Shown piece by piece: positions 16,101-60,853 of a stretch of 64,000 nt of DNA (position 1 is the first letter of the stretch; every line of letters starts with the position of its first letter). This DNA comes from Ruania suaedae. GTDB lineage: Bacteria > Actinomycetota > Actinomycetes > Actinomycetales > Beutenbergiaceae. The notes beneath the pieces were generated by a model. That model searched no databases, was not told the DNA's origin, and saw only the letters and a list, made by a program, of their open reading frames with translations. Position numbers and translations under genes: made by a program. The DNA lies in contig NZ_CP088018.1 in the NCBI RefSeq assembly GCF_021049265.1, positions 3,472,001 to 3,536,000 on the forward strand, read 5' to 3'.

Positions 16101-17124
16101 CGAGGAGGTCGCGGTCACCGCCACGCTGACCAACGATGTCGACGGATCCGCACTGGCCGACGCGCCGCTGACCTTCACCTGGGCCGGCGAGGAGTGCCTC
16201 GCCACCACCGGCGCCGAGGGCATCGCCACCTGCGGCTTCGACGCCGCGACCGTCGCCCAGTCCGGTGACGTGCAGGTCACCTACGCCGGGAGCGAGGACT
16301 TCGAACCCGGCTCGGCCTCCGCCGTCGTCGACGTGCAGCCCGCTGCGACCGAGACGACTCTCACCGCGACGCCGTCGGGCGCGTTCCCCGCCCCGGCGAC
16401 CCTGGTGGCCACGGTCAGCCCGACCGACGGCGCCGGCACCGTCACCTTCACCGCCGGCGGCGAGCCGATCGCCGAGTGCGCCGAGGTGACGCTCACCGAG
16501 ACCGACGAGGGTTGGATCGCGACCTGCGCGGCTGCCCCGGCCGGCGCCGGGCCGCAGGAGTACGGCGCCGAGTTCTCGGGTACCGCTGACTACCTGCCCT
16601 CCACGGGAACTGCCACCGCCGATCTGGACAAGGCCCCCACAGTGCTCGCGGGCCTCGGCCCGGACGAGGCGATCGCCGGGGAGCCGGTGACGGTCAGCGC
16701 GCTGCTGTCGCTGCCCGAGGCCACGACTGCGGCCGGCGAGCGCAGCCGGTTCGCCATCGCGCCGATCTCCTCCGAGGTCATCGGCGCCGACGCGGACGTC
16801 ACCGGCCTGGAGGTCGTCTTCGCCGTCGGGGAGGCCACGTGCACCGCGACCACCGATGACGACGGCCTCGCCGAGTGCGAGCTGACCGTCGCCGAGGCGG
16901 GCGAGGCCGAGCTGGTGGCGACGTTCGCCGGGACCGACGATCTCGCCGCCTCCTCCGCCACGGTCACGCTCACCGTGGACGAGGCCCCCGCCGAGGCTCC
17001 GGACGGCGCCGAGGACGAGGACCTGCCGAGCACCGGCGCCGGATTCTCGGCCGCGGCCCTGGCGGCGGGCGTGCTGGTCCTCCTGGGCGCCGTCCTCATG
17101 GTGGCGCGCACCCGCCGCGCCTGA
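13114..17124 (+). CDS. Giant LPxTG-anchored surface protein with tandem Ig-like repeats
   Basis: 1336 aa. The signal peptide (about 1-42) ends near AQAATP. Three cadherin/VCBS-like modules follow (about 45-310, each with a F.YC pattern such as SFDYCLA). Then about eight bacterial Ig-like domains alternate between two types, a TTLTG...SPTDGAGTVTFTAGG type and an APATLTYTG...GQPL type, giving a paired unit of about 193 aa. The C-terminus has LPSTG, a membrane helix and RTRRA, so the protein is probably sortase-anchored. No catalytic domain is seen. Adhesion or a structural wall layer is the most likely role. Paired cysteines in each Ig module could form disulfides. Confidence 0.85.
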   Translation: MSASPAASRTSASLTRLVSCAVVAFLVLVGVVAVAAPAQAATPVAYGDTYGSPMDVPITVPAPGVMSNDVAAAGYEVLVVETSVGIGNTLEVSPTGSLTFTTRPGFAGESSFDYCLASGGTCVSNTATAFLYVGQPYLYSKAYQALEGQTLTVPASEGLLVDAGNIDDETLRVLRSSGGTVTVAPDGSFSFAPSAGFTGRAFFEYCLARDGSCISAGAQASIAVYPTLSGQSFSVAQDSSYGGTLYPAPSGGVSYVGLVTADPANGDLEVANSGTFTYTPDAGYTGPDSFSYCLSIDGAACISGTSAVTASVTVTPNDIVTTTTLTGETSLRFGESLALTATVDPTPGGGIVAFSEGGAVCADQPVSGGTASCTIAQPTVGSHSYSAQYSGSGLYLPSSDNLEVTVSKAQSALAYTGPNTATVGEPLELAMLLTSPTLDLNGENVSLSFDGQNCSGAVDDDSSFSCTVTPSSAGPVELALTYGGSPTVEAATEIGDIQVARQTSTTTLTVDDDTPVWGEAVMFTAAVPGSATGTVAFSTEYGPLTGCGSVVVSNGAANCSTAFDVGDHEVTATYSGDATFDGSSDTIAIEALRRLTTLAYTGPQSGTVGEEFTATALLTQGDAPLPGIDVAFTLAGSGSADCIAATDEDGIASCELTVPAAGPIALEITQAGTALYQPNSITEQLQVGAAATTTTLTGTEQVVVGGTASLTATVSPTDGDGTVTLTAGEDTIDGCEEIALTDVEGVWTAECTTATLPVGENEIVATYSGTPDYLASSDTTTVEVLRAPATLTYTGDVTGVVGQPLVVSADLDVDFAGSPTALDGVELTFTFDGETCVGTADADGVAECTFIPTAAQTSLVSVSFAGTTDITPAQTSEPVTIAAAPTTTEISGPEAGEFTEPLTFTAQVAPTDGAGTVTFTAGGDVIEGCEELALTDVEGTWTTECTTSVLPVGETTVTVSYTGTADYETSEDSTVVTVAPAPTALSLEAPETVIVGEEVAVTATLTNDVDGSALADAPLTFTWAGEECLATTGAEGIATCGFDAATVAQSGDVQVTYAGSEDFEPGSASAVVDVQPAATETTLTATPSGAFPAPATLVATVSPTDGAGTVTFTAGGEPIAECAEVTLTETDEGWIATCAAAPAGAGPQEYGAEFSGTADYLPSTGTATADLDKAPTVLAGLGPDEAIAGEPVTVSALLSLPEATTAAGERSRFAIAPISSEVIGADADVTGLEVVFAVGEATCTATTDDDGLAECELTVAEAGEAELVATFAGTDDLAASSATVTLTVDEAPAEAPDGAEDEDLPSTGAGFSAAALAAGVLVLLGAVLMVARTRRA

Positions 17125-56689: not shown

Positions 56690-57739
56690 GTGCTGGCCTA
56701 CGAGTACGGCAGCGACGGCCGATTGGCGTTGCGCGAGAAGGACGTCCCGAGAGCGGCCGAGGGCGAGGTGACCATCGACGTGGTCGCCGCCGGCATCTGC
56801 GGCACCGACCTGAAGATCGCCCGCGGGCAGCACCGGCTGTTCCCGCCCGGCACGGTGCGCGTGCCCGGCCATGAATCGGTGGGCCGGGTGCGCGAGAACC
56901 GCTCCGGGCGCAGCGACCTGGAGCCCGGCACGCCGGTGGCCATCGCCCCCAATATCGCGTGCGGGCAGTGCCCCCCGTGCCGCAAGGGCCTGGGGCCGCT
57001 GTGCGAGGACTACACCTCCGTGGGGCTGACCTTCGACGGCGGTTTCGCCGAGGTCGTGCGGGTCACCGCCCGGGGTGTCGCGGGCGGGAACGTGCTGCCG
57101 CTCCCGCCGGGGCTGGACCTGATCACCGCGGCGATGATCGAACCGGTCGCGGCCGTGGTGCGCGGCCTGCGCCCGCTGCGACTGACGAGCGAGGACACCG
57201 TGCTGGTGTGCGGCGCCGGCCCGATCGGGCTGACCGCGGTGGTGCTGGCCAAGCAGGCGGGCGTGCGCCGCATCATCGTCAGCCAGACCTCGGCCGCCCG
57301 CCGTGAGCTGGCACGCCACTACGGTGCCGACGAGACCATCGACCCACGCGCGGTGGACCTGGTCGAGACGGTGTTCGAGCTCACCGACGGCATCGGTGCC
57401 GAGGTGGTCATCGCCGCCACCCCGGTGCACCAGGTGTTCACCGACGCCGTCCGGGCCGCCGCCAAGGGCGGCAGGGTGAACTTCTTCGCCGGCCTCCCCT
57501 CCGGCAAGGGTGAGGTCACCGTGGATGCGAACCTCATCCACTACCGCGAGCTGCTGGTCACCGGCTCGACGGCGAACACCGCCGCCGACTGCGCCGAGGC
57601 GATGGAGATCGTCGCGAGGGCACCGGAGGCGTTCGCCGAGCTGATCACCCACCGGGTGCCGCTGCGCGAGGCTGACCGGGCGTTCGAGCTGGCCAAGGCC
57701 GGCGAGGCGCTGAAGGTGCTGCTCGAACCTCAGGCCTGA
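56690..57739 (+). CDS. Zinc-binding medium-chain alcohol dehydrogenase
   Basis: 349 aa. Catalytic zinc ligands are in AGICGTDLKIARG and VPGHESVG; the structural-zinc cysteines are complete in IACGQCPPCRKGLGPLCEDY (four Cys). The nucleotide motif is CGAGPIGL. The closest named relatives by pattern are sorbitol/threonine-type and L-sorbose-related dehydrogenases, but the substrate is unclear. The start is GTG 56690 with AAGGGAG upstream. Its stop overlaps the stop of the convergent signal-peptidase gene by ten bases. Confidence 0.88.
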   Translation: MLAYEYGSDGRLALREKDVPRAAEGEVTIDVVAAGICGTDLKIARGQHRLFPPGTVRVPGHESVGRVRENRSGRSDLEPGTPVAIAPNIACGQCPPCRKGLGPLCEDYTSVGLTFDGGFAEVVRVTARGVAGGNVLPLPPGLDLITAAMIEPVAAVVRGLRPLRLTSEDTVLVCGAGPIGLTAVVLAKQAGVRRIIVSQTSAARRELARHYGADETIDPRAVDLVETVFELTDGIGAEVVIAATPVHQVFTDAVRAAAKGGRVNFFAGLPSGKGEVTVDANLIHYRELLVTGSTANTAADCAEAMEIVARAPEAFAELITHRVPLREADRAFELAKAGEALKVLLEPQA

Positions 57740-58269
57740 TCGGCCGTCGCGGGTGGCTCCTTGCCCGAGCGATCCCGGCCGCGGCGGGGCCAGAACGCCC
57801 AGGTGACCAGCGCCGTCGCCGTGACGGTGAGGCCGCCCAGCACGAACGGGTGGCCGAACCACACGACGACGGAGGCCAGGTAGGGCACGGACGCCAGCAC
57901 CAGCCGCACCCGCTCGACCGTGTAGGGGGCCGGGTCCGGGTCCTCGTTCGCGTCGCCCTGCATGGTGAAGGTGACCGACTCGCCGTCGGTCTCCAGGATC
58001 TCCAGCACCCGGTGCGTGACCGGGAGGGCGCCCGGGCGGTCGACGGTGACCACGTCGCCGGGCTCGATCTCGGTGGCGGGGATCTCCTGGACCACGGCGA
58101 CCGATCCGGCCGGGATGGTCGGGGCCATCGAGCCGGTCGAGAACATGATCAGCGTGATGTTCATGACCACGGCCAGGACGACGGCGAGGATGCACAGGCC
58201 GCCCCCGACGGCGAGGGCGGTGAGGGCGGCGTCGCCGAGGCGGGCGAGGGTCGGGCGTGGGCGGGTCAT
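57730..58269 (-). CDS. sipW: Signal peptidase I, SipW type (S26B)
   Basis: 179 aa with an N-terminal membrane helix, the catalytic Ser in MFSTGSMAPTIPAGS and a second membrane helix near the C-terminus. The S26B family of archaea, eukaryotes and SipW has a His instead of the general-base Lys; here LPVTHRVLEI supplies that His, and no Lys follows at the usual spot. The ATG at 58269 overlaps the previous gene (ATGA). Being last in the operon of alternate-signal-peptide proteins makes it their processing enzyme, as SipW is for TasA in Bacillus. Confidence 0.9.
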   Translation of the reverse strand: MTRPRPTLARLGDAALTALAVGGGLCILAVVLAVVMNITLIMFSTGSMAPTIPAGSVAVVQEIPATEIEPGDVVTVDRPGALPVTHRVLEILETDGESVTFTMQGDANEDPDPAPYTVERVRLVLASVPYLASVVVWFGHPFVLGGLTVTATALVTWAFWPRRGRDRSGKEPPATADQA

Positions 58270-58721
58270 GTCCAATAGCAATCACCGATGAGGCCACCGA
58301 CCACTGTCACGATCTGACCATTGAGCCAGGCACTCTGCCACGAGCCCGACACCACGCGCACCTGGAACGTGCGTGTGGTCTGAGCCAGGGCCGCGGAGAC
58401 CTGACGTTCTCGCGTACTGCTGGTCAGGGTTCCGTTGCTTGCGACACTTCCGTCGGATCTCAGGACTCGCCACTCATAGCTGAAACTGCTGGGAGCGGGT
58501 TCCGGGGCGAGCCATGTAAAGGTTGAGGTGCCGCTCAGTACGCCGATCGTGCAGGTGCCCGCCCGAGGTGAAGCAAGCGTCGCCGCCATCACCGACGCCC
58601 GCGCGACCTCGGCGTCCGTCCAGGCCGCCGTCGTCGGCTCAGGCCCCCCGGCCGCCACGGCCGCGAGCACCAGCACACCAGCCGCCGCGAGCGCCGCCCG
58701 CACCCGCCTCCCGCCCGTCAT
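58266..58721 (-). CDS. Small secreted protein with SipW-type signal peptide
   Basis: 151 aa. The N-terminal region RRVRAALAAAGVLVLAAVAAGGPEPTTAAWTDAE ends in the AAWTDAE motif that marks SipW-processed precursors. The mature part is short, Ser/Thr-rich, with two cysteines (CTIGVL near the start, DCYWT at the end) that could pair, and a FTWLAPEPAPSSFSYEWRV segment like a beta-sandwich. Function unknown. Overlaps both neighbours by four bases, so it is tightly coupled to the peptidase and the LPxTG protein. Confidence 0.75.
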   Translation of the reverse strand: MTGGRRVRAALAAAGVLVLAAVAAGGPEPTTAAWTDAEVARASVMAATLASPRAGTCTIGVLSGTSTFTWLAPEPAPSSFSYEWRVLRSDGSVASNGTLTSSTRERQVSAALAQTTRTFQVRVVSGSWQSAWLNGQIVTVVGGLIGDCYWT

Positions 58722-59359
58722 CGCAGCCTCCGCCGGGCCACGACCGCGATCGCCGCCCCGAGCAACACCGCACCGAGAGCCAGCACGGCCGGCCACAGCA
58801 GTGAGGCGCCCGTGGTCGGAAGGCCCACCTCGCCGTCGGTGGAGATCTCATCACCGGCCCCCTCGGCGAGCAGGCGTAGCGTAGTCGAGGCCGGAGCGGT
58901 GGCCTCCTCCGAGAGCTGGACGCTCACGCGGTACCAGATCGCCTCGGCGGCGGCCTGCGTGGCGATCTCCAGCGAGGACCCGCCGGTCACCGGTACCCGG
59001 TCGAGCACCGCGCGGCCACAACCGCTCGCCTCGGCCTCGCAGGCGGCGACCGAGACGGTGAACCCGCCCTCGGCCTGGACGGCCACCAGCGAGAGGTCGA
59101 TACTCCCCTCGGGTTCGTTCGCGGACACCTGCACGTCCCACGGCACGGACTCGCCCGGCTCCATCGACCTCATCGCCGCGCGGTCCTGCACCGAGACCAG
59201 GCGGAGCACGTCACCGACGATCTCCTCGCGCTCGGGCCCGGCAGCGGCCGAGGCCGCCGAGCCCGCGGCCACCAGCAGCACGCCGGCGGTCAGCACCGCG
59301 CACACGGCGCGTGCCATCGGTGCGGCCCGGGCCGGGCACGGACGAGGGATCAGGTCCAC
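58718..59359 (-). CDS. LPxTG-anchored surface protein of the SipW operon
   Basis: 213 aa. Signal peptide with core VCAVLTAGVLLVAAGSAASAAAG; the mature beta-rich domain has two or three cysteines (VAACEAEASGCG). The C-terminus has LPTTG, a membrane helix (SLLWPAVLALGAVLLGAAIAVV) and ARRRLR: a sortase substrate. The start is GTG 59359, three bases after the previous stop; an internal ATG at 59317 is possible. It could anchor a fibre made of the other secreted proteins to the wall; that is inference from context. Confidence 0.8.
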   Translation of the reverse strand: MDLIPRPCPARAAPMARAVCAVLTAGVLLVAAGSAASAAAGPEREEIVGDVLRLVSVQDRAAMRSMEPGESVPWDVQVSANEPEGSIDLSLVAVQAEGGFTVSVAACEAEASGCGRAVLDRVPVTGGSSLEIATQAAAEAIWYRVSVQLSEEATAPASTTLRLLAEGAGDEISTDGEVGLPTTGASLLWPAVLALGAVLLGAAIAVVARRRLR

Positions 59360-59362
59360 GGG

Positions 59363-60022
59363 CTACTCCGACGTCGCCAGGAACTGCCAGGTGGCGATGA
59401 GCGTCTGCCCCTGGGCGTCGGTCGAGGCTCCGGCGATCATGCTCATCCGCACACAGAAGGACACCGTGCTCCCCGCCGCCGCCGTCAGTGGCCGCGCGTT
59501 CGGCAGCACCGCCGTGGCCAGCGCGGTCTCGTTCGGCACGATCACCGGGGCGGAGGTGTTGGTGAACAGCGCGGCGTTGCACGACGATCCGCTAGGGATC
59601 AGCCGTACGGCGTATCGCATCGCGTTCTGCAGCGCGGCCGGTCCCGCGATCGTCGGGGTCTGCATGGTCACCGAACCCCCGACGGTCGAGGATGCCGTGG
59701 TCCGGACGCCGAAGCTCGTGTACCCGGCCGTTCCGGGCGAGAAGGCGGGGACCGCCGGCGAGAAGGCGAGCGTGGCCGCGGAGCCGCTGGTGGGATGTTC
59801 GGAGAACGCACCCCCGTTCACCGACCCCACCACACCGAAGGTGCTGGCGGTGACCGTGGTGGTGGCGTACTCGCTGTCGTTCCACGCCGCCAGGGTCACC
59901 GCACTGCCGAGGCCGAGCACCAGCCCGCCGGCGAGCAGCGCACGCAGCCGGAGCAGCCGCGTGCGCCGCGGGCCCGAACCCCTCACCCGGGCGTGCCGTG
60001 GTTCGTGCCGCGTGCGCCCCAC
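59363..60022 (-). CDS. TasA/camelysin-like secreted protein with alternate signal peptide (2)
   Basis: 219 aa from GTG 60022, one base after the previous stop. The N-terminal helix ends ALLAGGLVLGLGSAVTLAAWNDSEYA, the same signature as the upstream protein. The mature part is beta-rich, with a cysteine pair (SSCNAALF, VSFCVRM). It ends ATWQFLATSE, nearly the same ending as the upstream protein (AVWQYTATSE), so the two are paralogues. The earlier in-frame ATG at 60070 would lie inside the upstream gene. Likely exported and cut by the SipW-type peptidase. Confidence 0.8.
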   Translation of the reverse strand: MGRTRHEPRHARVRGSGPRRTRLLRLRALLAGGLVLGLGSAVTLAAWNDSEYATTTVTASTFGVVGSVNGGAFSEHPTSGSAATLAFSPAVPAFSPGTAGYTSFGVRTTASSTVGGSVTMQTPTIAGPAALQNAMRYAVRLIPSGSSCNAALFTNTSAPVIVPNETALATAVLPNARPLTAAAGSTVSFCVRMSMIAGASTDAQGQTLIATWQFLATSE

Positions 60023-60023
60023 G

Positions 60024-60653
60024 TCACTCAGAGGTCGCGGTGTACTGCCACACGGCGGTGGTGTCGCCACCCTGCTCCAGGTCCTCGCCCGCGGTGACGA
60101 CGGTGCACAGCAGCACGGCCTCGCCGGGCTCCGTGGTCGGGTCGCCGATGGTCAGCGGCACGGTCTCGCCGGCGACGGCCGGGTCGTCGGTGAGGGTGTC
60201 ACCGGAGCCGAGGAGGGTGCCCTCGGTCGCGGTCTCGTCGCAGGTGGCGTCCACGGCGATGGCGTAGATCTCGTAGCTGAGGTTCTCCGAGTTCGTGCCC
60301 GTGCCATCGGTGGAGTCGAGGGTGACCAGGTCGAGCGTGGCCGGGCTGGTGGTCTCGGCCGCCAGGCGCACCCAGAACGGGGCGTAGACCACGTCCTCGG
60401 GCGCCAGGTTGTCGAACGGCGCGGTGAACGTGAGCTCGGCGGCGCCGCCGGCGGACTCGTGATCGGTGTAGCCCTCCGTGGCGCCCGTCGTCGAGCCCTG
60501 CAGGTCGAACTGCCCGGCGGTGAACAGGCCGGAGGCGAACTCGCTGTCGTTCCAGGCGGCGAGCGTGACGGCGGCGCCGACGCCCAGGACGAGCCCTCCG
60601 GCGAGAACGGCGCGGACCTTGCGGCTGCGGGTGGAGCGGTGGACCTCGGTCAT
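60024..60653 (-). CDS. TasA/camelysin-like secreted protein with alternate signal peptide (1)
   Basis: 209 aa. The basic N-terminus (RSTRSRKVR) and helix AVLAGGLVLGVGAAVTLAAWNDSEFASGLF form the alternate-type signal peptide. The mature domain is acidic and beta-rich, with cysteines in DATCDETA and LLCTVVT. It ends AVWQYTATSE. First gene of a five-gene operon with gaps or overlaps of at most four bases. GAGGGGAAG precedes the ATG. By analogy with Bacillus TasA it may be a structural surface fibre protein, but similarity is limited to signal and general fold character. Confidence 0.82.
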   Translation of the reverse strand: MTEVHRSTRSRKVRAVLAGGLVLGVGAAVTLAAWNDSEFASGLFTAGQFDLQGSTTGATEGYTDHESAGGAAELTFTAPFDNLAPEDVVYAPFWVRLAAETTSPATLDLVTLDSTDGTGTNSENLSYEIYAIAVDATCDETATEGTLLGSGDTLTDDPAVAGETVPLTIGDPTTEPGEAVLLCTVVTAGEDLEQGGDTTAVWQYTATSE

Positions 60654-60781
60654 GGTGTCTTCCCCTCGTGGTGACATATGCGGCGTCGACACGCGCCCAG
60701 CGCCCGGCCGTACCCCGTTGTTGAACAGCAGAGTAGGCCGGGTTGAACGGACGATCAAGGTGGGGCGGGCCACACACGACA

Positions 60782-60815
60782 ACGGCGCCCGCCCCTCGAA
60801 GGGGGCGGGCGCCGT
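60782..60815 (-). terminator. Hairpin terminator after katA
   Basis: Perfect 14-bp stem ACGGCGCCCGCCCC/GGGGCGGGCGCCGT with a 6-nt loop; outer bases extend the pairing past a small bulge. It starts 38 bp after the katA stop. Confidence 0.8.
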
Positions 60816-60853
60816 CGTGCACGGGCTGCTCGTCAGCCCGGTTCAGCTCGCTC

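Follow-up and report, generated by a model that had tools for sequence, protein, structure and literature searches.

The DNA examined here (the window) is a stretch of 64,000 nucleotides from Ruania suaedae (contig NZ_CP088018.1, positions 3,472,001 to 3,536,000), whose 3.56 Mb chromosome forms a single contig. It holds five open reading frames (ORFs), designated genes A to E, that lie on the minus strand from 60653 to 57730 and for which a role in building a TasA-like surface fibre held at the cell wall appears fairly probable. The initial annotation had described five adjacent genes separated or overlapping by no more than 4 bp, and the ORFs with their junctions of +1 (A/B), +3 (B/C), -4 (C/D) and -4 bp (D/E) confirm it; the gene types that it had named, namely two alternate-signal paralogues, an LPxTG protein, a third alternate-signal protein and an S26B signal peptidase, were likewise recovered through TIGR04088, TIGR02228, the sorting signal of C and the N-terminal profile of D (Table 1). 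A strong terminator-like hairpin sits between gene A and a co-directional upstream catalase gene, and the 3' end of gene E is overlapped by a convergent dehydrogenase gene; the operon is therefore considered to consist of these five genes, which are presumably read as one shared transcript. A scan for sigma-70-type promoters, uninformative for this bacterial group, found nothing.

Table 1. Features of the five-gene operon, with positions given in the window.
Feature	Position	Strand	Basis
Gene A, SipW-type exported TasA-like subunit (predicted)	60024..60653	-	precursor 209 aa; TIGR04088 33.4 bits; fold model
Gene B, paralogue of A	59363..60022	-	219 aa, GTG start; TIGR04088 29.9 bits
Gene C, LPTTG-type protein	58718..59359	-	213 aa, GTG start; ordinary signal peptide; closed Ig-like sandwich (predicted)
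LPTTG sorting signal, membrane segment and basic tail of C	58721..58823	-	sequence; genome search match
Gene D, small SipW-type protein with Fn3-like domain	58266..58721	-	151 aa; donor-like N-terminus (AWTDAE...); conserved Cys pair
Gene E, SipW/S26B signal peptidase of Ser-His type	57730..58269	-	179 aa; TIGR02228; GSM and THR motifs
Strong terminator-like hairpin, upstream operon boundary	60773..60819	-	RNA fold z -5.85

Both A and B match the 34-residue model of the SipW-dependent signal above its cut-off of 19 bits (NCBIfam). Cleavage of A is predicted between A32 and A33, yielding a mature protein that would start with AWNDSEF and whose N-terminus, AWNDSEFASGLFTAGQFDLQGS, would be the donor segment; mature TasA and TapA start with AFNDI and AFHDI respectively (PMC10151520). 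The Trp at position P2' is invariant across the 57 A/B proteins aligned, and an aromatic residue at this position is known to hinder the common P-type signal peptidase, the cleavage of TasA requiring SipW (PMC10269814). B is 28% identical to A and aligns within the A family (A2 alignment).

The structure of A was modelled with AlphaFold2 from an alignment of 57 window and locus sequences (predicted local distance difference test, pLDDT, 91.7; predicted template modelling score, pTM, 0.85). A Foldseek search of this model against 350,542 PDB chains gave a single match below 1e-3, the TasA fibre 8aur (E 8.2e-5, probability 1.00), in agreement with the TasA-like fold anticipated for the paralogues. 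In fibres of the 8aur type the subunits are joined by donor-strand exchange, the donor strand being residues 28-38 at the mature N-terminus of TasA (PMC9674648); of the earlier description of TasA as an amyloid-type fibre matured by SipW, the maturation stands while the amyloid nature does not, cryo-electron microscopy having revealed a donor-strand-exchange fibre (PMC9674648). VIA-align 2 paired residues 1-177 of the A model with residues 28-233 of TasA, thus from the mature N-terminus onwards (Z 7.4, root-mean-square deviation (rmsd) 4.2, 146 residues aligned), and residues 1-18 of the model are strandless, matching what is expected of an extended donor arm. Many of the other leading VIA rows are donor-strand pilins or filaments (Fim, Pap, Csu, Sulfolobus), the top one being the Sulfolobus 0406 filament (Z 8.1, rmsd 9.1, 147 aligned), and glycosidase domains also score among them. 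With Z values that are middling and shared by many rows, the assignment of a TasA-like sandwich fold to the A model depends on three lines taken together, namely the Foldseek match, the donor segment in common with TasA and the occurrence alongside SipW. Profile searches of PDB sequences with the A2 and A3 alignments and with the mature N-terminus of A gave no relevant match, so that the kinship of A with TasA is one of fold and signal, not of sequence.

Gene D has no TIGR04088 match; its N-terminus scores 14.2 bits against a profile of the A/B N-termini, compared with at most 8.5 for shuffled sequences and 3.8 for C of the window. An aromatic P2' residue is present in eight of eight D sequences and the Cys pair is conserved, both according to the D alignment, which was taken in place of the P2' counts of the D2 profile, that profile being mixed with A-like proteins. 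An fn3 domain was found in the one D orthologue of Ruania rhizosphaerae at E 2.9e-5, slightly under the gathering score. TapA is built of a TasA-like N-terminus followed by a complete immunoglobulin (Ig) domain (PMC10151520), and the putative donor-like N-terminus and Fn3-like domain of D match it by layout only. D may therefore be a TapA-like initiator or tip of the fibre.

Genome contigs scanned with the A alignment yielded 229 relatives, of which 80 loci were kept for profile searches; the nearest named relative was R. rhizosphaerae (Ruaniaceae, Micrococcales), and the genera represented include Microbacterium, Brevibacterium, Arthrobacter, Kocuria, Leifsonia, Agrococcus, Mycetocola and Nesterenkonia, among others. 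Almost all of the 80 loci have SipW next to A, and about 68 carry either C itself or an LPxTG ORF at the corresponding place (61 by profile and 7 more by eye). The order A-B-C-D-E is kept in several Ruania genomes and is mostly A-B-E-C-D elsewhere; hence the synteny check proposed at the outset holds for the gene set, and for the exact five-gene order within Ruania, but not for a fixed order outside this genus. In an independent, even sample of the order, A was present in 24 of 149 genomes, 21 of which carry C on the same strand and no more than about 2.5 kb from A. The clustering of the five genes is not attributed to chance, since they are also grouped in several other Ruania genomes and relatives across Micrococcales repeat the gene set. 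Variation among the loci was also seen: two Ruania relatives (L027, L028) are without gene B, two others (L029, L030) have longer Gly/Pro-rich spacers ahead of the LPxTG motif of C, and in Arthrobacter crystallopoietes the main operon is preceded by an incomplete second set of ORFs resembling SipW and A (L083, 2194-4466).

Gene E scores 66.4 bits against TIGR02228, the model of archaeal/endoplasmic reticulum-type signal peptidase I (cut-off 51.85), and the Ser (GSM) and His (THR) motifs are kept in 84 of 84 E relatives. In 33 of the 80 loci SipW and C are fused as a single ORF, an arrangement also encountered in a relative from the host's own family (L034). All 33 fused ORFs end with an LPxTG-like motif and a basic tail, and 31 have a hydrophobic segment between the last membrane helix of the peptidase and the C domain; among five tested against NCBI models, the SipW part exceeded its cut-off in all five and the LPxTG part in one. 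An AxA check of the fused proteins was too lax for showing internal cleavage. On a tree of the SipW core, counted with the mis-scored rows L083 and L120 excluded, the fusion state changed at least seven times, at least five of these changes being forced by well-supported branches. Because fusion or fission arose repeatedly, the sequence comparison gives a strong sign that SipW and C are functionally coupled and work together.

The C-terminus of C consists of LPTTG, a hydrophobic stretch and RRRLR, and its sorting signal scores 18.3 bits against TIGR01167 in the genome search (cut-off 15.9) and 14.5 bits in the protein scan; the LPxTG-type motif is conserved in relatives. Two sortase genes over the Pfam cut-off were found in the genome, L123 (79.5 kb) and L124 (36.7 kb), both far from the operon, and the former is presumably of class E, judged by its sequence and neighbourhood. 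A covalent linkage of C to peptidoglycan appears plausible. The model of C (pLDDT 95.6) is a closed Ig-like sandwich for which the best VIA rows are N3 domains of staphylococcal LPxTG adhesins (MSCRAMM; Z up to 9.3) and the basal pilin EbpB (Z 8.4), the TasA fibre ranking eighth in Foldseek (E 7.9e-4). A function based on this fold was rejected, as Ig-like folds are common and the matches are crowded with unrelated sandwiches (MSCRAMM, arrestin, adaptin and others). In Pfam, C and D hit DUF3710 and RskA_C respectively, but these weak matches lie far below the gathering scores and were discarded. A further LPxTG sorting signal (21.7 bits) is located in the window at about 17023-17118 on the plus strand, inside an open frame of 1340 residues.

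Two more SipW loci are present in the same genome, both with TIGR04089-type substrates and with an LPxTG gene adjoining SipW. One of them (L025, 4589-7712, about 1993.6-1996.7 kb) comprises two SipW genes, two SipW-type substrates and an LPDTG protein. The other (L026, 3822-9667, about 318.8-324.7 kb) comprises a large surface protein, a TIGR04089 substrate, SipW, a weak SipW-type protein and an LPETG protein, whose signal of 13.9 bits is slightly under the model cut-off; a similar layout recurs in three relatives (L039, L040, L041). Only 24 LPxTG signals exceed the cut-off genome-wide, and by our own arithmetic the expected chance of finding one within 3 kb of a SipW locus is about 4%. As it was observed at three of three loci, the proximity of LPxTG genes to SipW is unlikely to be due to chance.

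Prediction and comparison thus support the SipW-type signals, the TasA-like fold of A, the operon and the coupling of C with E. The initial annotation had cautiously proposed that this SipW-type operon might form a surface fibre attached to the wall, a reading to which the predicted fold of A and the conservation of the gene set lend support. We consider it reasonably probable that the operon specifies a TasA-type surface fibre, assembled by donor-strand exchange and attached to the cell wall via C, and we infer the following course of assembly. A, B and D would be exported by Sec with signals that the general peptidase, faced with Trp at P2', would cut poorly; their cleavage by E would then free the N-terminal donor strand, and A, probably together with B, would polymerise by inserting this strand into the next subunit, D starting or capping the fibre as TapA does. 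C would be cleaved by ordinary signal peptidase, and a sortase encoded outside the operon, probably of class E, would attach it to peptidoglycan; there, beside SipW, C would hold the fibre, or the site of its assembly, to the wall. Such a fibre may serve in biofilm formation. A bolder and tentative extension is that SipW and the LPxTG protein act together as a single platform in which cleavage, nucleation and anchoring of the donor-strand fibre take place at one spot, the sortase joining the fused peptidase-bearing protein, or a released C part, to the wall. If true, this would give Gram-positive bacteria an equivalent of the chaperone-usher base, in which a signal peptidase serves as assembly enzyme.

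Several results weigh against a wall-tied TasA-like fibre. In Pfam and NCBIfam, A and B have no match beyond TIGR04088, including to the TasA equivalog NF046066, TIGR04090, TIGR04089, Peptidase_M73 and the camelysin families; the VIA Z of A against TasA is just 7.4 and tied with many rows; C is not clearly homologous to A (hhalign probability 3%); Agreia and a few other lineages are without C; and the predicted fold of C is closed. This last point also favours the main rival explanation, in which A and B form a free, shed matrix fibre similar to TasA or BsaA, and C acts independently as a chaperone or adhesin bound to the wall, comparable to CapP, that aids assembly there without serving as the anchor of the fibre. 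TasA/CalY filaments are indeed described as sortase-independent with CapP retained at the wall (PMC13082335), and BsaA polymerises without sortase (PMC7395162). The conserved LPxTG signal and the repeated fusion of C with SipW favour a wall-fixed role of C, though not a link to the fibre itself, and this rival is held to be possible rather than probable.

The possibility that A and B fold like TasA yet remain monomeric, as secreted or surface-coat proteins that form no fibre, with SipW as no more than their dedicated processing enzyme, was considered unlikely. A TasA-like fold by itself is no proof of polymerisation, and the VIA Z values are middling; on the other hand, the N-terminus of the A model is extended as in the fibre state of TasA, and two paralogues with a TapA-like partner are found within one operon. 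A covalent pilus built by sortase, with C as one pilin among SipW-exported subunits, would account for the LPxTG protein in the operon and for the resemblance of C to a domain of EbpB. It is nevertheless very improbable, given that no sorting signal was found in the sequences of A, B and D, that the five-gene operon holds no sortase gene and that both sortases of the genome are encoded far away. The fibre of the TasA kind, tied to the wall via C, is the reading preferred.

TasA-like fibres and SipW are already known, and since TasA-like proteins have been reported in various bacteria and archaea (PMC10151520), A and B alone would represent a new subfamily of a known kind. C, as a conserved and often SipW-fused partner, appears new: the literature search found no description of such a sortase-substrate partner of SipW. 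Searches that combined SipW with LPxTG or with genera of Micrococcales found no such operon, and no paper naming the models TIGR04088-04090 was found; both are weak negatives, as the literature searched covers only a minority of subscription journals. The proposed fibre would extend the TasA type of donor-strand assembly to a large actinobacterial group (Microbacterium, Brevibacterium, Arthrobacter, Kocuria, Leifsonia, Ruania and others), and would join SipW processing and sortase anchoring, two machineries treated separately, sometimes in one polypeptide. It also makes testable how TasA-like fibres stay attached to the cell surface.

Among known systems, tapA-sipW-tasA of Bacillus subtilis shares with the Ruania operon a dedicated Ser-His SipW, substrates with an aromatic P2', a (predicted) TasA-like sandwich with an N-terminal donor segment and a small putative Ig-type partner with a donor-like N-terminus. 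The Ruania operon differs in its two paralogues without a TasA sequence-family match and in its LPxTG partner C, often fused to SipW, and for gene D the likeness to TapA is limited to layout. The sipW-tasA/calY/capP system of Bacillus cereus also has two TasA-like paralogues and a wall-retained helper, CapP, which is the nearest functional precedent for C (PMC13082335); that system is described as sortase-independent, whereas the presumed wall protein here has an LPxTG signal. In Clostridium perfringens, sipW-bsaABCRSD (TIGR04090) produces a SipW-dependent matrix polymer (PMC7395162), as the Ruania operon would, but A and B have no TIGR04090 match, and BsaA lacks LPxTG and forms its polymer independently of the neighbouring sortase. 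Archaeal threads and bundling pili are donor-strand filaments, as the Ruania fibre would be, the Sulfolobus filament that heads the VIA rows of A being one point of likeness, though they belong to another domain of life with another envelope and other partner genes. Closest at hand in the same genome, the actinobacterial TIGR04089 alternate-signal operons (L025, L026) share SipW, SipW-type substrates and an adjoining LPxTG protein with the operon described here, and differ from it by another substrate subfamily, a larger gene set and no SipW-LPxTG fusion seen.

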